A DNA stretch of 25,421 nt from a virus. A program made the position numbers and the translations under genes. Positions 8,138-25,380 of the stretch are shown here, in pieces. Each line of letters opens with the position of its first letter. The stretch's first letter is position 1. Below the pieces are notes generated by a model that worked only from the letters and a program-made list of their open reading frames with translations, had not been told where the DNA came from and did not search any database. The stretch lies in the IMG/VR virus record IMGVR_UViG_3300028025_002715, positions 1 to 25,421 of that record; one strand, written 5' to 3'.

Positions 8138-8826
8138 TGATTACGACTGCGCTTCACTTCTCTGGTGGTAAAGATAGCTTGGCCTGCCTGTATATGTATC
8201 GCCATCGCTGGAAGGATATGTATGTCATCTGGGTCAATACAGGCTCTCTCTACCCCGAGATGCAGGCGTATATGGACAGGTGGAAGGCGATCCTTCCGCA
8301 CTTCATTGAAGTTAAGACAGACCAGCCAAAGCAGGTAGTTGAGAATGGCTGGCCTGTTGACGTTCTGCCAGTAAACAGCATGCCTCTTGGTCGTGTTATT
8401 TCTGGCAACGATGGGCCTCTGATGCAGCCGTATACAAGTTGCTGCGCGACGAACATTTGGTTCCCACTGCATGAGGCCACGCTCAAGTTGGGTGTGACTG
8501 AGGTGATTAAGGGGCAGAGGGTTGAAGATGGGTTCAAATCTCTTGCTCGCAATGGAACCAAGTTTCAGGGCTTAACCTACATTATGCCCATTGAGGACTG
8601 GACCACTGACGAAGTGTTCTCGTACCTGAATATGATGGAAGTCGAGCTTCCTCCGGGGTATAATGATGGTGAGAAGACTGGCCGCGATTGCTGGGATTGC
8701 ACTGCGTTCTTGGGCGACAACCAGCGCAGAATTGCCAACCTGCCTGAAGATCGAAAGAATGAGATCAAGCGCCGTCTTGGGATTATAAAGAAGTCCATAG
8801 ACGATCAGTGGAATTGGGTGGATTGA
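8137..8826 (+). CDS. PP-loop [4Fe-4S] PAPS/APS-reductase-like protein (CysH superfamily)
   Basis: A 229-residue adenine-nucleotide alpha-hydrolase-fold protein. The PP-loop SGGKDS is at residues 9-14, so it should bind ATP or an adenylylated substrate. Cys102-Cys103 and Cys185-x-x-Cys188 form the CC...CxxC pattern that holds a [4Fe-4S] cluster in bacterial APS reductases and related enzymes. GQRVEDGFKSLAR (126-138) resembles the family's substrate loop. The C-terminal ECGxH catalytic cysteine motif of true reductases is absent, as the protein ends after a charged helix. A sulfate-assimilation role is therefore doubtful, and a sulfur-transfer or nucleotide-modification role (as for DndC-like relatives) is an alternative. 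It is embedded, by one-base overlaps on both sides, in the virion gene row, an unusual place for a metabolic enzyme. Confidence 0.82.
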   Translation: MITTALHFSGGKDSLACLYMYRHRWKDMYVIWVNTGSLYPEMQAYMDRWKAILPHFIEVKTDQPKQVVENGWPVDVLPVNSMPLGRVISGNDGPLMQPYTSCCATNIWFPLHEATLKLGVTEVIKGQRVEDGFKSLARNGTKFQGLTYIMPIEDWTTDEVFSYLNMMEVELPPGYNDGEKTGRDCWDCTAFLGDNQRRIANLPEDRKNEIKRRLGIIKKSIDDQWNWVD

Positions 8827-13296: not shown

Positions 13297-13493
13297 ACCC
13301 AATAGACCTTATCAAGAATGACGACGGAACTTATACGCTTGAGTATTTCCGTCGCGTAATCGGATACATCAATCAATCATATCTCGAAGGAACATCCAGC
13401 CCGATATTTCGCGCTGTATCTACAGTTGGCGGCATCGCTTATGCACCAACTCTTGATGACGCTAAGAAGAGCTTGCTGGAGATGTCGCAATGA
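13293..13493 (+). CDS. Small unknown phage protein
   Basis: A 66-residue protein from ATG 13293, overlapping the preceding stop by four bases, with AGGAGAGG (13281-13288) as ribosome site. A longer version beginning upstream at 13173 would cover the hairpin and the tiny membrane gene and is rejected. It contains a beta-hairpin-like start (DLIKNDDGTYTLEYFRRVIG), a short variable middle and a helical end (TLDDAKKSLLEMSQ). It is soluble, with no cysteine or known motif. It lies at the head of a chain of coupled small genes, so it is probably made early. No family is recognised. Confidence 0.6.
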   Translation: MNPIDLIKNDDGTYTLEYFRRVIGYINQSYLEGTSSPIFRAVSTVGGIAYAPTLDDAKKSLLEMSQ

Positions 13494-13762
13494 ACGATGT
13501 CGATCCACTAGCTGTTGGGTTGCGCGGATTTAGGGTTAGAGAGCTGATCCTTCCAATCCTTCAGAGGAGCGCCATTCCTTGGGAGATCATCAGTGGCCCC
13601 AGAAAGATGGCGCACATCGTGTCGGTTCGGCATGAGGTCTACTACACGCTTAAGAGGGCCGGGTACTCGAACGTAAAGGCCGGAGAAATCTGCAACAGAG
13701 ATCCGACCACGATAATCAATGGAGCCAGACGGCATAAGGAGAAGTGCAGTGAAGGATGTTGA
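13490..13762 (+). CDS. DnaA domain IV-like DNA-binding protein
   Basis: A 90-residue protein coupled to the previous gene by ATGA. Residues 44-82 follow the C-terminal DNA-binding domain of the replication initiator DnaA: VRHEVYYTLKRAGYS corresponds to the first helix pair (in DnaA, RQxAMYLxRxxTxxS). It is followed by the turn and the signature NRDPTTIINGARRH (69-82), where DnaA has GRDHTTVxxAxxxI. The usual His of RDHTT is Pro here. No AAA+ ATPase domain is present, so it could bind DnaA boxes but not melt an origin. It may compete with or recruit host DnaA, or act as a regulator. A perfect DnaA box lies at 17542. The domain match is by eye and should be read as a family resemblance. Confidence 0.68.
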   Translation: MNDVDPLAVGLRGFRVRELILPILQRSAIPWEIISGPRKMAHIVSVRHEVYYTLKRAGYSNVKAGEICNRDPTTIINGARRHKEKCSEGC

Positions 13763-16624: not shown

Positions 16625-16695
16625 AGCTGATCTGTAAGTGCAACAAGAGCGCCAAGCTGGCTTGTGTATATGTGGGAAAAGCAGATGAACGATGA
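16621..16695 (+). CDS. Possible 24-residue cysteine-containing peptide
   Basis: The reading frame starts at ATG 16621, overlapping the previous stop (ATGA), with AGAGGA seven bases upstream, and ends at TGA 16693-16695 inside the next gene. The product contains Cys-x-Cys near the start (MKLICKCNKSAK) and another Cys at position 15, reminiscent of a tiny zinc knuckle. The coupled start is the only real support. It could equally be a leader or chance frame bridging two genes. Confidence 0.4.
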   Translation: MKLICKCNKSAKLACVYVGKADER

Positions 16696-16945
16696 ACGCA
16701 ACTTGAAAATAGTTAGGCTATGGAATAGCGGGTTGAGCGCGAAGGAGGTTGGAGCAATGCTAGGCGTTACGAAGAACGTGGTTCTTGCCGCAGTCGTAAA
16801 ACACAGGGCGCTCGGAGACATCACGCGACCTATGATCTACAGCAGGGGGGAGCGTAGCAAGCTGGCAATCATCGCAAGGTTTGGGTTCAGGAGAAAAAAG
16901 AATGATCGACCGCAACAGCGAAATCATCAGGCTTTGGAACGATAA
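16685..16945 (+). CDS. GcrA-like N-terminal-domain protein
   Basis: The start is taken as ATG 16685, giving 86 residues; ATG 16670 would add five. Residues 2-38 match the GcrA helix-turn-helix: ERNLKIVRLWNSGLSAKEVGAMLGVTKNVVLAAVVKH against the family LW..GLSxxxIAxxLG.VTRNAVIGKVHR. The TRNAVIG block is altered (TKNVVLA), so DNA recognition may differ. The rest is basic and does not contain the Cys-rich sigma-interacting domain of GcrA. GcrA is an alphaproteobacterial cell-cycle regulator that binds sigma70 and acts on GANTC-methylated promoters. A DNA-binding-only version could act as a competitor. It overlaps the next, full-length GcrA-like gene by 44 bases. Confidence 0.65.
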   Translation: MNDERNLKIVRLWNSGLSAKEVGAMLGVTKNVVLAAVVKHRALGDITRPMIYSRGERSKLAIIARFGFRRKKNDRPQQRNHQALER

Positions 16946-17396
16946 CAAGAGCGCGTCAGAAATAGCCAAGTCTGTTGGGGTGACTAGAAACTCTGTTATC
17001 GGCGTCGTAACCCGCGCAAGACCTATCGGGCTAATCACTCGCCAACAAGAACTTAGCAAGGCACCTCGTGGAAGGCTTGGCGACTTCAGAAAATACGGAC
17101 CTCGAAAGATGCCAAAGATTTTTCACATCGAGTTCAAGTCTGAAGTTGCCGAAGAGCGCGAGGAACAAGACAGCAGCATCATCGGTGTGCCGATTATGGA
17201 GCTGGAAACAAGCAGTTGTAGGTTTCCCACAAGCAGAGTTGACGACCAGCATTATTTTTGTGGCAAGCCAAGGAGGGACTACAGAACGAGCTACTGCGCA
17301 GAGCATCACGCCGTTGTGTGGGTCAGACCAAGACGAATCGGACCTGCGCATTCAAAAAACGAAAGACGTCCATTCTCGCTCAGAAAGATTTCATAA
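16902..17396 (+). CDS. GcrA-like cell-cycle regulator, two-domain
   Basis: A 164-residue protein from ATG 16902 with AGGAG about ten bases upstream. Residues 5-40 are the GcrA HTH (EIIRLWNDNKSASEIAKSVGVTRNSVIGVVTRA), close to the family VTRNAVIGKVHR. After a basic linker, residues 95-137 match the GcrA C-terminal domain: GVPIMELETSSCRFP, then HYFCGKP, then SYCAEHH, with Cys106, Cys120, Cys132 and His135 in the expected order. That domain contacts region 2 of sigma70 in Caulobacter. The phage protein could therefore redirect host RNA polymerase at methylated promoters. It follows a shorter GcrA-like gene. The family assignment is good and the regulatory role is inferred. Confidence 0.82.
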   Translation: MIDRNSEIIRLWNDNKSASEIAKSVGVTRNSVIGVVTRARPIGLITRQQELSKAPRGRLGDFRKYGPRKMPKIFHIEFKSEVAEEREEQDSSIIGVPIMELETSSCRFPTSRVDDQHYFCGKPRRDYRTSYCAEHHAVVWVRPRRIGPAHSKNERRPFSLRKIS

Positions 17397-19478: not shown

Positions 19479-20096
19479 ATGGCACTTGGTATGAATTTCG
19501 ACACGTCTGGTTCGGGCCGTAAGTTTTTGCCCGTTGTGAAGTTTGATGCGAAAAGCGGCGACATGATGATTGTCAACCGCGACCCGCAATCGGATGGGAC
19601 GTGGGAAAAAACAGAGATCGAACTGAAGTTCCCAACGCACGCAATCTGCGACTTTGCAAACATCGAGATTGGTTGGATCGGGTTCGTCGATAATAAGTTC
19701 GATTATGTAATGGCCAAGGCCGGTCAAAAGATGCCTGCCTGCCCGTCACCGGACCATAAGCAGGGCATCCGTCTTCGCATGTTCTTCAAGGAGCACGGAG
19801 TTCGCGAGTTTTCGCATACGTCCAAAAACGTTCTGCGCGTGATCGATGCAATCCACACGCAGGCGGAGAACGAAGCGGCAGCTAACCCCGGCAAGGTTCC
19901 GGTCGTTTTGATTAGCGGCACGGAAACGATCAAGATGCAGACCAAGCAGGGGGAGCTTCGCTTCAAGGTTCCGACCATGGAGATCGTGAAGTGGGTTGAC
20001 GTACCGGCTGAAATGAAAGAAGCGGCATCAGCGCCTGCCGCGGTAAAGGCTGCTCCTGCGGCAAAGCCTGTTGCGGAACTTGACGACGACTTCTAA
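19479..20096 (+). CDS. Phage single-stranded DNA-binding protein
   Basis: The ATG at 19479 is preferred (205 residues) because longer versions would run through the preceding gene. The body is beta-rich with aromatic residues (WEKTEIELKFPTHAICDF, IEIGWIGFVDNKFDYV) and a middle rich in Lys/Arg, compatible with an OB fold. The C-terminus is an Ala/Pro/Lys linker followed by the acidic aromatic tip VAELDDDF, the usual partner-binding end of SSBs such as T7 gp2.5. A cysteine-poor, single-domain layout and position directly before the primase-helicase support the call. It would coat single strands at the fork and during recombination. Confidence 0.75.
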   Translation: MALGMNFDTSGSGRKFLPVVKFDAKSGDMMIVNRDPQSDGTWEKTEIELKFPTHAICDFANIEIGWIGFVDNKFDYVMAKAGQKMPACPSPDHKQGIRLRMFFKEHGVREFSHTSKNVLRVIDAIHTQAENEAAANPGKVPVVLISGTETIKMQTKQGELRFKVPTMEIVKWVDVPAEMKEAASAPAAVKAAPAAKPVAELDDDF

Positions 20097-20097
20097 T

Positions 20098-20139
20098 AAA
20101 AAACGGGGGCGATGGGCGGGAGAACTCACCATCGCCCCC
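20098..20139 (-). terminator. Intrinsic terminator read leftward; leader hairpin read rightward
   Basis: Arms 20105-20115 and 20129-20139 are a perfect 11-bp GC-rich inverted repeat with a 13-base loop. On the minus strand the stem is followed by one G and six T (20103-20098), the classic intrinsic-terminator layout. On the plus strand no T-tract follows; the stem would lie in the leader of the primase-helicase mRNA, about 10 bases before AGGAAGGGG. It may stop leftward transcripts that run antisense through the primase gene. Confidence 0.6.
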
Positions 20140-20168
20140 AGACCGCGCAGGAAGGGGATTACGCGGCT

Positions 20169-22445
20169 ATGCAAAATATAACAGAAAACAAATTCAGTGA
20201 TAGCACTTCAATAACTTTGGGCATCGCCACAGGCGGGGCTACAGATGTTAAGCTCAAGCCAACATTGTTTTCTTGGGAATCGTTCAAAAACCGCCTGCGC
20301 ACGCCCCGGATCGGTGATAAGGGCGGAAGCTACTACATCCGTGGCGGCGACCTGATCGAGAACAAGCGGGCGGATGAAAACCTGAGAAGCGGCGAGCTGA
20401 TCATTCTGGACGGAGATAGCAGCTTCGACCCTGAAACAGGCGAGATTATCAACGGCGCGCCTGATCTTAACAAGGTCTGCGCTGCGCTGGAAGATATGGG
20501 CATAACCTTTTGCGCTCATACTTCGCATAGCTACATTCCAGACCAGATTTGGAAATATAGGATCGCAATCCCAGCTAAGCTGGGGAGTGGTGAACAGCTC
20601 ACGGCTTGCGTGGCCTATCTGATCGACAGCCTTGTTGCGCGTGGCGTTCACCTTGCTGACGTGCCTGAGAACCATAGATGGTCGCAGCCTTGGTTTACGT
20701 CGCGGGTTCGTGATCGCGCAGCCAATGAAGAGTTTTTGTTCTTTGAACACACTGGTTCGGTCTTCGACGTGCGCGGTGCTGTTGCGTGGAATGATGCGCG
20801 AGTATTCGCTGCAGAGGCTACAGCAAAGGCGCGGGCGCCTGCTGCTGGGCCTGTTGAGAAGTCGGGCGCCATCGCAGAGTTTAACGACAGCCATGGGCTT
20901 GAATGGGTCCGCTCTGAGCTTGAAGGTGCGGGCTATCGCTTCGGCTACTTTGACCGGACGCATGAGGCCTATCGCTATATGCGCCCCGGATCGTCCACCA
21001 AAACCTTTGGGCTTGTGGTGTTCAAGGGCTCAATGGGTCATTGGTGCACATATTCGCATCATGGCAGCGCCGATAGGCTTTCTAACCGGGTCTGCGATCC
21101 GTTCCAGCTTGTGGCCGAATTGCGTTATGGTGGCGACCTGAAAGCGGCTGCGGCTGGCGTGTTGCAGAAGGTAGCCAAGCCAAGCGTGGTGGAGCAACTT
21201 GCACAGCGCGCAGAGAAGCGCAACCTTGAGCGAGAGCTTGAGGCGTATAATTCGGAAGGCTTGCAGGACGCGCCGTCAGGCGCTCAATCTGTAGAGGCAC
21301 CAAAGGAACCCAAGCGCCGGATCGAGCTTATTAAGTGGGGTGAGTTGCGCGATGAACCTATTCGCTGGACGATCAAGGACATCCTTCCCGCAAATAGCTT
21401 TTGCGCGCTCTACGGGCATCCGGGCAGCTACAAGAGCTTCGCGGCGTTCTATCTTGCGTGTTGCATTGCGGGCGGCTTAGAAGCCTTCGGGAAGCCCAGC
21501 GTTCAAGGCCCAGTCGTCTACATAGCATTAGAGGGCGGAGCCGGACTGAAGCGTCGTCGGGATGCTCTGAAGCGCTCAATGAACCTGCCGGACGATCTGC
21601 CATTGTACTTTATCAAGTCGCAGCTTAACCTTGGATCGACACTAGAGGATCGCGATGCACTGGTGGCAGAGATCGTGCGCATAGGCGTCAAGCCGTCTTT
21701 GGTTATTATTGACACGTTCGCCAGAGCGACACCGGGGCTTGAGGAGAACAGCGCAAAGGACGTCGGTTCCGCCATTACGATCATGTCGTCGCTACAAGAC
21801 GATCTAGGCTGCGGCGTTCTTATCATTCACCATAGCGGCAAGGATCAAGCACGGGGAATGCGCGGATCGTCGGCTCTGCTTGGTGCGGTCGATCTGGAGC
21901 TAGAATGCCAAAAGATAAGCCAAGGGGGATCAGCCGATAGGATTGGCAAGCTTACGGTCACAAAGCAAAAGGACGGAGAAGACGGCATCGTTCTTGGCTA
22001 TCGAATGGACGTCGTGTCGCTATCGCAGATTGATCCAGAGGCCACTTCGCTTGCGCTTGTGCCAATCGCCACAGAGGAGCTGGAAAGCGCCAGCAAGGTA
22101 AAGAGTGCGAAAGAGCAAAAGATCAACGTGGATGCGAAGGTAGCCATTCAGGCATTGGAGCAAGCGATAAGTGAGGGAGGCGAGCAGCCACCCATCGGCG
22201 ATAGGGCTCCGCGTGGGACTAAGGCTGTCAGGGAAACCTTGTGGCGTGAATACTGGCGTAAGATAACCACAAAGGAGGGAGGGGCGGAGCGTGCGGGCTG
22301 GTCAAGGGCGAAAGAGAACCTTGTGGCTACGTCTCGGGCTACGCATTGGGGGGATTGGTGGTGGCTTATCAAACAGGAAGAAAAGCACGCCTACCCCTTC
22401 CAGAGCGAGCGCGCTTTAGATCGTTCCGATGATATTCCGTTTTAG
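20169..22445 (+). CDS. Primase-helicase with RepA/DnaB-like ATPase domain
   Basis: The ATG at 20169, with AGGAAGGGG about ten bases upstream, gives 758 residues; a start at 20112 would lie within the leader hairpin. The N-terminal region carries LIILDGDSSFD (Asp81-x-Asp83), then AHTSHSYI and KYRIAIP, a layout of PrimPol-type primases. The C-terminal half is a RecA-fold ATPase: GHPGSYKS at 416-423 (Walker A), VVYIALEGG, LVIID at 511-515 (Walker B), and GCGVLIIHHSGKDQ, as in RepA/DnaB-like helicases. It ends in SDDIPF, identical in its last five residues to the tip of E. coli SSB. It should prime and unwind phage DNA, using the host polymerase. Its stop overlaps the stop of a leftward gene. Confidence 0.78.
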   Translation: MQNITENKFSDSTSITLGIATGGATDVKLKPTLFSWESFKNRLRTPRIGDKGGSYYIRGGDLIENKRADENLRSGELIILDGDSSFDPETGEIINGAPDLNKVCAALEDMGITFCAHTSHSYIPDQIWKYRIAIPAKLGSGEQLTACVAYLIDSLVARGVHLADVPENHRWSQPWFTSRVRDRAANEEFLFFEHTGSVFDVRGAVAWNDARVFAAEATAKARAPAAGPVEKSGAIAEFNDSHGLEWVRSELEGAGYRFGYFDRTHEAYRYMRPGSSTKTFGLVVFKGSMGHWCTYSHHGSADRLSNRVCDPFQLVAELRYGGDLKAAAAGVLQKVAKPSVVEQLAQRAEKRNLERELEAYNSEGLQDAPSGAQSVEAPKEPKRRIELIKWGELRDEPIRWTIKDILPANSFCALYGHPGSYKSFAAFYLACCIAGGLEAFGKPSVQGPVVYIALEGGAGLKRRRDALKRSMNLPDDLPLYFIKSQLNLGSTLEDRDALVAEIVRIGVKPSLVIIDTFARATPGLEENSAKDVGSAITIMSSLQDDLGCGVLIIHHSGKDQARGMRGSSALLGAVDLELECQKISQGGSADRIGKLTVTKQKDGEDGIVLGYRMDVVSLSQIDPEATSLALVPIATEELESASKVKSAKEQKINVDAKVAIQALEQAISEGGEQPPIGDRAPRGTKAVRETLWREYWRKITTKEGGAERAGWSRAKENLVATSRATHWGDWWWLIKQEEKHAYPFQSERALDRSDDIPF

Positions 22446-23274: not shown

Positions 23275-23317
23275 TGTGTTTCCCCTAGTCGCGCCGTAGC
23301 GCCGTTTCGATGGATTG

Positions 23318-23347
23318 GTTATAGGACATGGTGGCCTATGGCGTCAA
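23318..23347 (-). promoter_or_regulatory. Leftward sigma70-like promoter of the small-gene operon
   Basis: On the minus strand TTGACG (23347-23342) and TATAAC (23323-23318) are 18 bases apart, giving five of six matches to each consensus. The leader that follows, down to ATG 23274, resembles the leader of the leftward gene at 24607 almost base for base (CGGCGC and CTAGGGGAAA blocks), so the two units share a duplicated control region. Confidence 0.6.
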
Positions 23348-23433
23348 CAGGCATTTGCAATTATTTTGAGATTGTGCGAAGTTTTTTTTGGCGCGTTATT
23401 GTTCCGGCAGCTTGTGCTTGTGCGTAACAAAAA

Positions 23434-23583
23434 GCGCATCAAAAAAGCGTTCAGCGCATCAATTCTGTTTTGAATTGCACAAGCTTGAGCGCACCGCATC
23501 AACAAAACTCTATAAGAGTTGTTGATGCGTGCGCTTTAGCGCATCAAAAATGGGTTGCAACGCATCAAAAACTGTAACGCATA
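23434..23583. repeat. Iteron-like array of GCGCATCAA motifs
   Basis: Direct copies of (G/A/C)CGCATCAA start at 23434, 23454, 23494, 23539 and 23560, an inverted copy ends at 23530 (TTGATGCGT, 23522-23530), and a truncated copy (ACGCATA) starts at 23577. Start-to-start spacing is 20, 40, 45 and 21 bases, so several copies lie on the same face of the helix at about two turns. This is the layout of plasmid and phage iterons or of a multi-site operator. The rightward gene at 23608 starts 25 bases after the last copy. Confidence 0.7.
23496..23528. repeat. Imperfect palindrome inside the iteron array
   Basis: GCATCAAC (23496-23503) and GTTGATGC (23521-23528) are perfect inverted copies of the array motif. 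Between them AACTC (23506-23510) and GAGTT (23516-23520) also pair, leaving a TATAA loop and a two-base bulge (23504-23505). It may extrude as a hairpin or bind a protein dimer. Confidence 0.65.
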
Positions 23584-23607
23584 GGCTTAACAGTAAAGGG
23601 GTATAAA

Positions 23608-24174
23608 ATGGTAAAGCAAGCAAGGAAGATGCAGCAACAACCAAAGGCCGTGGCTCCTATAGACCCGCCCGCAGATTGCTACCAAGAGATACAGGAGCCT
23701 TTGCAGGTGCTAGAGCAAACGGAGCTATATCTGTCGCGCATGTACGGCCTAGGCAATGTTTTACGATTTGCAGGCGTTGAGCTGGCGCAAAAACTCGGGC
23801 AGGCAAAAGATCAGGTGACACGCGCAATTCACAAGCCGGATCGTGACGCTGCAGCGCAAGCTGTCGGTCGCGTTGTCAAAGGCTGGAGCGTGCTGGAACG
23901 CAAAGCGTTAGACGCCGGTCTAACAGTGCTGCCGCCGGATATTGTTTCGACCCTGTACAAAGGCCGAGAGCATTGGATAGTCACAGGGTCACGCTATGAC
24001 GCGGCAACGGATCAAGCGCCTGAGCATGTTCGCGTGGTCCATGTGGGGGAGCTGTTGGCGGCTTATGACATCATCGCCGAACGCGTGCGCTTGGAAGCTA
24101 TCAAGGGGGCTTTCCCCGGCGCACAACTAGTGTCTAGTACCATACCGTCCAAGGGCGACGCCATGCCGTTCTAG
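23608..24174 (+). CDS. Unknown phage protein next to the iteron-like array
   Basis: A 188-residue protein from ATG 23608, with AAAGGGG six bases upstream. It is mostly helical: VLEQTELYLSRMYGLGNVL, then LGQAKDQVTRAIHKPDRDAA, then VVKGWSVLERKALDAGLTV. A beta-prone middle (YKGREHWIVTGSRYDAA) precedes a last helix and a tail ending in SKGDAMPF, which ends in Pro-Phe like SSB tips. I see no HTH or nuclease motif and do not recognise a family. It follows the iteron-like array directly, so it may be the protein that binds it or be controlled by it. It is followed by an intrinsic terminator, making it a one-gene unit. Confidence 0.65.
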   Translation: MVKQARKMQQQPKAVAPIDPPADCYQEIQEPLQVLEQTELYLSRMYGLGNVLRFAGVELAQKLGQAKDQVTRAIHKPDRDAAAQAVGRVVKGWSVLERKALDAGLTVLPPDIVSTLYKGREHWIVTGSRYDAATDQAPEHVRVVHVGELLAAYDIIAERVRLEAIKGAFPGAQLVSSTIPSKGDAMPF

Positions 24175-24650: not shown

Positions 24651-24679
24651 AATATAGGCCGCAATGTCCTATCTAGCAA
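24651..24679 (-). promoter_or_regulatory. Leftward sigma70-like promoter of the 24607 gene
   Basis: On the minus strand TTGCTA (24679-24674) and TATATT (24656-24651) are 17 bases apart, with matches in four and five of six consensus positions. The 43-base leader after it is closely similar to that of the promoter at 23318-23347, including the CGCTxCGGCGC block and CTAGGGGAAA ribosome-site region. Confidence 0.55.
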
Positions 24680-24788: not shown

Positions 24789-25238
24789 ATGAGCGGTGCT
24801 CAGATACCACAAGAAGAACAGCGGAAGCCGAAGCGCAATGCAAAGGGCCAACTGCTACCGGGGGAGAAACTAAACGGTTCAGGGTTGGAGCGATACAAAG
24901 CCCGCATGAAAAACCAACTGGACCAGCTAACGCCCCGCGCGATCGGTAGGTTATCGAAACTCTTGGATAGTGAGGACGAAAAGGTGGCCATTGTGGCCGT
25001 CAAAGAGATTCTCGACCGAAACCTCGGGCGCCCCAAAGCGTCGCTCGACGTGAAGGTGGAAGCGTCCTTATCGGCCCTGCACCTAGAAGCCCTCGAACAA
25101 CTGGCGAACCGCGCAAGCGAGGCTCGAGCGTCCCGCATGATAGACGTCACGCCCACGGTTAAGCCTGACGATATGTCGAACGACGATATAGTCGTACAAC
25201 GAATAAATCGTATGACGATTATATCTGGTGACGATTAG
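24789..25238 (+). CDS. Small-terminase-like protein
   Basis: A 149-residue protein from ATG 24789, eight bases after GGGGAAGGGG. The N-terminus is basic and flexible (RKPKRNAKGQLLPGEKLNGS), followed by helices (RMKNQLDQLTPRAIGRLSKL, then VAIVAVKEILDRNLGRPKAS). The LTPRAI..L..LL.s.DekvA..A..eiLDR.lGRPK layout occurs in proteins encoded just before large terminase genes in phages, where they are usually called small terminase subunits. It would recognise phage DNA and hand it to the packaging motor. Its last 20 codons lie inside the 16-bp tandem repeat, so the C-terminus (SNDDIVVQRINRMTIISGDD) is written by repeat units. The large subunit is not in the window, so the call is moderate. Confidence 0.5.
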   Translation: MSGAQIPQEEQRKPKRNAKGQLLPGEKLNGSGLERYKARMKNQLDQLTPRAIGRLSKLLDSEDEKVAIVAVKEILDRNLGRPKASLDVKVEASLSALHLEALEQLANRASEARASRMIDVTPTVKPDDMSNDDIVVQRINRMTIISGDD

Positions 25239-25380
25239 ATCGTAGTGCGATCATATCGTAGTACGACTATATCGTGATGCGACTATATCGTAGTACGAAC
25301 ATATCGTAATGCGAACATGTCGTATGACGAATAGCTCGTAACGCGAATGGTTCGTAATGCGATTAGGTCGGAATGCGACT
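25173..25380. repeat. 16-bp tandem repeat array (13 units), candidate pac site
   Basis: Thirteen consecutive 16-base units, in exact register, run from 25173 to 25380. The consensus is near ATATCGTAATGCGAAT, with the most regular units at 25253, 25269, 25285 and 25301. Each unit contains TCGTA-N-(T/G)(A/G)CGA-like halves, perfect as TCGTAGTACGA at 25257 and 25289, an 11-base palindrome apart from its centre. The outer units are more divergent. The first four units are inside the end of the small-terminase-like gene. There are no unique spacers. Clustered protein-binding sites beside a terminase gene suggest a packaging initiation site. Confidence 0.85.

Follow-up and report, generated by a model that had tools for sequence, protein, structure and literature searches.

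A repeat array beside gene 23608

A dense cluster of short repeats lies between two divergent genes of this phage, which raises the question of what the cluster does and which protein reads it. The preliminary description of the window (the whole stretch of 25,421 nucleotides analysed here) had suggested an iteron origin or an operator, bound by the product of the gene at 23608. The features discussed below are the following:

20112..22445, plus strand: RepA-type primase-helicase gene (Pfam, PHROG and PDB matches)
22128..22367, plus strand: predicted winged-helix domain, proposed reader of the array (AlphaFold2, Foldseek, identity follows the word)
22281-22328, plus strand: predicted candidate for the recognition helix of the winged helix
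23435..23568, plus strand: array of six CGCATCAA words (word count, shuffles)
23495..23529, no strand: central dyad, an inverted pair CGCATCAACAA / TTGTTGATGCG around AACTCTATAAGAGTT (pairing, fold, relatives)
23608..24174, plus strand: conserved replication-module protein of no known fold whose C-terminal tip, GDAMPF, is SSB-like (homologues, C-termini, structure)

The array adjoins gene 23608; the helicase gene is 1 kb away. As described before, it contains five direct copies and one inverted copy of the motif. All six CGCATCAA words were located within 134 bp (plus strand: 23435-23442, 23455-23462, 23495-23502, 23540-23547, and 23561-23568; minus strand: 23522-23529), and none of 2000 dinucleotide shuffles of the region 23275-23607 contained six copies of any 7-mer or 8-mer. 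The 25.4-kb window harbors seven copies of CGCATCAA compared to 1.5 expected, and the sole copy outside the array is found at 19543. The start-to-start steps are 20, 40, 27, 18, and 21, so several spacings are indeed close to two helical turns. The region had also been called AT-rich; it does lean towards AT, but with 57% AT for the array and its margins it is just moderately so. A supposed truncated copy, CGCAT at 23578-23582, is probably no real site, since the related locus L004 (IMG/VR 3300012667_000477) still has CGCAT at this position despite its switch of the word, while its true copies all read CGTAT. Compact, non-coding short repeats tied to an initiator gene, as found here, are characteristic of iteron origins. 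A DNA search of phage records with the array region gave no match, and an Rfam search returned nothing above the gathering score.

The center of the array is the palindrome CGCATCAACAA-N13-TTGTTGATGCG (23495-23529) with perfect 11-nt arms. It encloses the inner near-palindrome AACTCTATAAGAGTT, with the core CTATAAG at 23510-23516. The single-stranded DNA fold of 23488-23540 has a free energy of -21.2 kcal/mol (z = -8). An exact search of viral contigs for the window palindrome found none. The palindrome also prompted us to consider a protelomerase (telomere-resolution) site. Its imperfect symmetry and the fact that words of the array form its arms make this unlikely.

The array is conserved downstream of RepA-type helicase genes

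Relatives of the primase-helicase gene were gathered from phage records and IMG/VR, and a scan with the primase-helicase of the window yielded 79 loci. An array was defined as at least six copies of one 6-mer within a span of 250 bp in the sequence following the helicase gene. Of 73 non-redundant loci, 61 have such an array downstream of RepA, and 63 exceed their own shuffles. Among the non-redundant loci that also encode a member of the 23608 family, the proportion is 54 of 57. Applied to control regions, the same definition identified none of 55 upstream of RepA and two of 66 inside RepA. In most relatives, the helicase gene and the 23608 homologue are codirectional and the array follows the helicase gene. 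The combination of helicase, array and 23608 homologue is also found in a Bradyrhizobium genome (L102) and in a genome bin of the Hyphomicrobiales (L094). In the complete genomes of relatives, GC skew tracks the coding strand and is uninformative about the position of an origin.

The arrays comprise 5-17 copies of a word of 6-9 bp, which differs between lineages and falls into many classes (CGTATCAA, CTACAAA, GTATAAA, CGTGACA, CGGGACA, CAGCACA, and others). In L004, whose 23608 homologue is 75-76% identical, the array occupies the same place as in the window; its copies are CGTATCAA and the palindrome center is altered on both sides (ACACTATAGTGT). MW202711, with a 23608 homologue of 28% identity, carries GGGACA repeats and GGGACACTC...GAGTGTCCC directly before that gene. 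The word is CTACAAA in the Roseobacter phages CRP-811 and CRP-823 and GTATAAA in CRP-821 and CRP-831, and both types have the center ACCCTTTAGGGT in common. In the complete genomes of CRP-811 and CRP-831, 11 of 11 and 10 of 11 word copies, respectively, are located inside the array. The annotated start of UOF80886 (MW202711 31177-31833) is apparently too early and crosses the array; the likely start is L005:5944.

Equivalent dyads are present in most relatives. Their cores mostly read CTTTAG, CTATAG, CTTAAG or CTATAAG with paired flanks, and in most arrays inverted words surround a core like ACCCTTTAGGGT. The flanks change on both sides together in 26 distinct cores, and none of 1000 arm shuffles paired as well as the observed arms; since the dyads were selected by their pairing score, which shuffled sequences seldom reach, this covariation is partly built in.

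In close relatives, the word changes with the helicase C-terminal domain

The window had been described as encoding a primase-helicase but no obvious initiator. The primase-helicase, which likely starts near 20169 ('MQNITENK'), consists of a primase-like N-terminal part, an AAA_25 / RSF1010-RepA-like helicase core and a C-terminal winged helix. It matches Pfam AAA_25 (E 3e-38), primase/helicase families of PHROG, and PDB 1g8y (RSF1010 RepA, E 3e-5), and this homology to the RSF1010 RepA fold suggests helicase activity. The primase-like part was recognized by inspection of the sequence, and Pfam gave no match there. For the C-terminal domain, AlphaFold2 predicted the order helix-strand-helix-helix-strand-strand with a pLDDT mostly >90, and the nearest Foldseek matches were DNA-binding proteins of the CRP/CAP family. 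PDB 1KA8, the P4 domain, was absent among the 50 Foldseek matches listed. A PDB sequence search with this domain gave weak, unconvincing matches at best, and Pfam scans gave no match to RepA_N.

Between near-identical phages the word changes at nearly all sites at once while the spacing is kept, and the switch accompanies the winged-helix domain. In close relatives the helicase core is nearly constant and the C-terminal ∼100 residues come as types: one type occurs in CRP-811, CRP-823, and L010 with the word CTACAAA, another in CRP-821 and CRP-831 with GTATAAA. We examined pairs with at least 85% identity of the 23608-family proteins. The word was the same in all nine pairs whose C-terminal domains were at least 85% identical and different in 15 of 17 pairs below 82%, these pairs being non-independent, as they were drawn from a few lineages. 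Two pairs, L019/L020 and L026/L029, have different domains and share the word. Two pairs illustrate the switch. L028 and L048 are 99% identical in both the helicase core and the 23608 homologue, but 50% identical in the C-terminal domain (words CGGGACA and CAGCACA); for L008 and L009 the corresponding values are 100, 93, and 68% (CTACAAA and GTATAAA).

The nucleotide identity of L028 and L048 is 98-100% at first, just 55-67% over the C-terminal domain and the array, and 97-100% again within the 23608 homologue. The profile of L007/L008 is similar. In both pairs the dip (52-69%) mainly covers domain and array with flanks of 88-100%, a pattern in which domain and putative origin are exchanged and the rest of the initiator is conserved. 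The steps within the array are 10,46,9,9,12,20,9,19,7 with one word and 10,46,9,10,12,19,9,19,8 with the other, which indicates that the geometry is constrained and the word is free. A global partial Mantel test of word against C-terminal domain gave r = -0.02 with the helicase core controlled, and just r 0.13 (p 0.009) when the 23608 family was controlled in addition to the core; the value near zero is probably due to saturation of the word distances, so that close pairs alone are informative. In loci whose array directly abuts the helicase gene, physical linkage could by itself keep word and domain together.

Since the word follows the winged helix, the phage probably does not lack an initiator: an origin-binding domain appears to be part of the primase-helicase itself. 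And since the word tracks this domain and not the 23608 protein, the origin part of the earlier proposal is probably right and its choice of binder probably wrong.

Origin, operator or packaging site?

We consider it likely from these sequence comparisons that the array is a replication origin, or one of two, read by the C-terminal winged helix of the primase-helicase. A conserved site next to the primase-helicase gene, dense repeats, a dyad core and preserved geometry all argue for a candidate origin. If the 23608 product instead bound the array as an origin or operator, this would explain why the array adjoins gene 23608 or its homologue in the window, L004, L005, L013, and L031 even with the helicase gene 1-2 kb away, and this gene is conserved in the replication module (homologues downstream in 66 of 86 RepA loci examined). 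But homologues of 93-99% identity face different words (L008/L009, L053/L057, and L028/L048), and the arrays of L015 and L016 adjoin the helicase gene rather than the 23608 homologue. Moreover, some loci in which no homologue was detected still have an array, namely, L076, L077, L080, and L088, which have the dyad as well, and L079, which has the array only. The predicted 23608 structure (pLDDT 88) matched nothing in the PDB, including any DNA-binding protein. This reading is therefore unlikely, and the 23608 product is probably an accessory protein. Most proteins of this family end in SSB-like tips (DDDIPF, DDEIPF, or GDAMPF, the latter at 24159-24171 in the window), which may recruit SSB-binding host proteins. 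The C-terminus of the window helicase (22425-22442) also has an SSB-like sequence, DDIPF.

We likewise see little chance that the array serves purely as a multi-site operator of the divergent early genes 23274 (leftward) and 23608 (rightward) with no role as an origin. Multi-site operators can resemble such arrays, and the array does separate two divergent genes and precede the start of 23608. However, the flanking genes are mostly not divergent in relatives, whose arrays come after the helicase gene; a conserved dyad in a better position (23321-23339) belongs to the leftward gene; and the word tracks part of a replicative helicase, its C-terminal domain. It is highly improbable that the array is a packaging (pac/cos) site or is recognized by the terminase. 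A small-terminase candidate (24789-25238) is encoded 1.2 kb from the array, and in L004 and MW202711 the word recurs in a second array, located on the terminase side of the block. Against this stand the association of the word with the helicase C-terminal domain and the single arrays of CRP-811 and CRP-831, in which essentially all copies cluster at the helicase and the terminase genes (∼30-32 kb) have none nearby. Arm-type sites of an integrase are unsupported, given that the word follows the helicase domain.

Both second arrays lie between the small- and large-terminase genes. In L004 (∼8495-8640, 185-330 bp past the small-terminase gene) it is near-identical to the first array, with 93% identity over the 46-nt dyad; in MW202711 (30340-30431) its core is CACCCCTATAGGGTG. 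The window stops 183 bp past its own small-terminase gene, close to the expected beginning of a second array, and L004 leads us to predict a further CGCATCAA array no more than ∼0.5 kb beyond 25421.

Proposed mechanism

The array, the conservation of its position and layout, the dyad core and the association between word and domain can be read directly from the sequences. From them we infer the following course of initiation. The winged helix of the helicase would bind the CGCATCAA words, and the inverted words flanking the dyad would set helicase subunits face to face for bidirectional loading. The AT-containing core CTATAAG may be the place of first strand opening or of hairpin extrusion. 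The same primase-helicase would then unwind and prime, and the 23608 product might, via its SSB-like tail, help to load replication proteins of the host or the phage. The sequence patterns are best explained by an origin that the C-terminal domain of the primase-helicase recognizes, functionally like phage P4 alpha, and that is exchanged together with this domain as a cassette.

We extend this only tentatively, with less than even confidence, to the idea that these phages carry an exchangeable replication address. It would be a cassette of ∼0.5 kb, winged helix plus origin, in which layout and dyad core are fixed and the 6-9-bp word is free. Recombination would swap it and allow escape from origin-directed antagonists (nucleases, satellites, origin decoys, or competing phages), with two arrays flanking the block from 23608 to the terminase genes in some members.

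Relation to known replication systems

Phage P4 needs a second repeat region, crr, and L004 and MW202711 have two arrays as well. The helicase of P4 alpha belongs to superfamily 3, whereas the core found here is AAA_25 / RSF1010-RepA-like. The course of initiation inferred above agrees with the description of P4 alpha (PMC4234260), but because the helicase type differs, the present system would work like P4 and not be a P4 alpha. No sequence relation between the winged helix described here and that of P4 alpha was found, and in contrast to P4 the word changes between near-identical phages. The similarity lies in the architecture: in P4 alpha a winged helix binds the origin repeats, and primase and helicase reside in one protein (PMC4234260); here, a winged-helix domain predicted by AlphaFold2 is fused to a primase-helicase.

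The exchange of domain and putative origin resembles the PLE satellites of Vibrio cholerae, in which RepA varies together with the origin in its DNA-binding domain but is otherwise conserved, modules were swapped repeatedly, and cognate pairs alone replicate (PMC8263062). The PLE initiator is of the RepA_N type without helicase or primase and acts on three semi-palindromic iterons of ∼30 bp (PMC8263062, PMC7145576), whereas we found 5-17 copies of a much shorter word, a different domain order and no RepA_N domain. With RSF1010/IncQ our system shares the homologous hexameric RepA helicase core (1g8y, AAA_25) and iterons beside helicase-primase functions. In RSF1010, however, initiation is spread over three polypeptides (PMC4234260), while primase-like part, helicase and DNA-binding domain form one chain here; a separate iteron-binding protein is not apparent, as the 23608 family fails to track the word. 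As in the origins of plasmid pRN1 and Bordetella phage BIP-1 (PMC4234260), the array typically directly follows a primase-helicase-winged-helix gene and includes a potential stem-loop conserved in structure but not in sequence. Those origins have a large stem-loop, lack iterons and are served by an SF3 helicase, as opposed to the dense word array with a dyad in our case.

Self-recognizing primase-helicases with adjacent origins are thus already known, as is domain-origin swapping in PLE satellites (PMC8263062). In the openly licensed papers searched, we found neither the RepA-helicase family described nor the switching of its word nor the plan of the dyad, and the CRP phage paper (PMC12629253) was not found to mention origin repeats. 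Our analysis predicts where the origin lies and which protein likely reads it in a wide range of uncultured phages and a few cultured ones. The matched domain-word pairs are a natural series for deriving a recognition code of the winged helix, and origin specificity could be exchanged between the near-identical CRP-811/823 and CRP-821/831. They also raise the question of what selects for a change of the origin word; for PLE satellites, an origin-cutting nuclease was proposed as the driver (PMC8263062).

Additional sequence elements

A conserved dyad, ATAGGNC-N5-GNCCTAT, is found upstream of leftward small genes in the window (23321-23339 and 24654-24672), L004 (5724 and 7748), and MW202711 (31970). 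The copy at 23321 overlaps a promoter-like sequence on the minus strand, TTGACG-N18-TATAAC, and the dyad is likely the operator of these genes. A degenerate 16-bp tandem repeat with the consensus TGACGAATATATCGTA (25166-25378) overlaps the end of the small-terminase gene and extends beyond it; this is possibly a packaging-related site. The second origin-like array of L004 occupies the corresponding place. The small protein encoded at 13490-13762 resembles the DNA-binding domain IV of DnaA, with a match to Pfam Bac_DnaA_C (E 0.006) below the cut-off. Finally, on visual inspection the ORFs at 16664-16945 and 16881-17396 resemble cell-cycle regulators of the GcrA type, which would fit a host among the Alphaproteobacteria.
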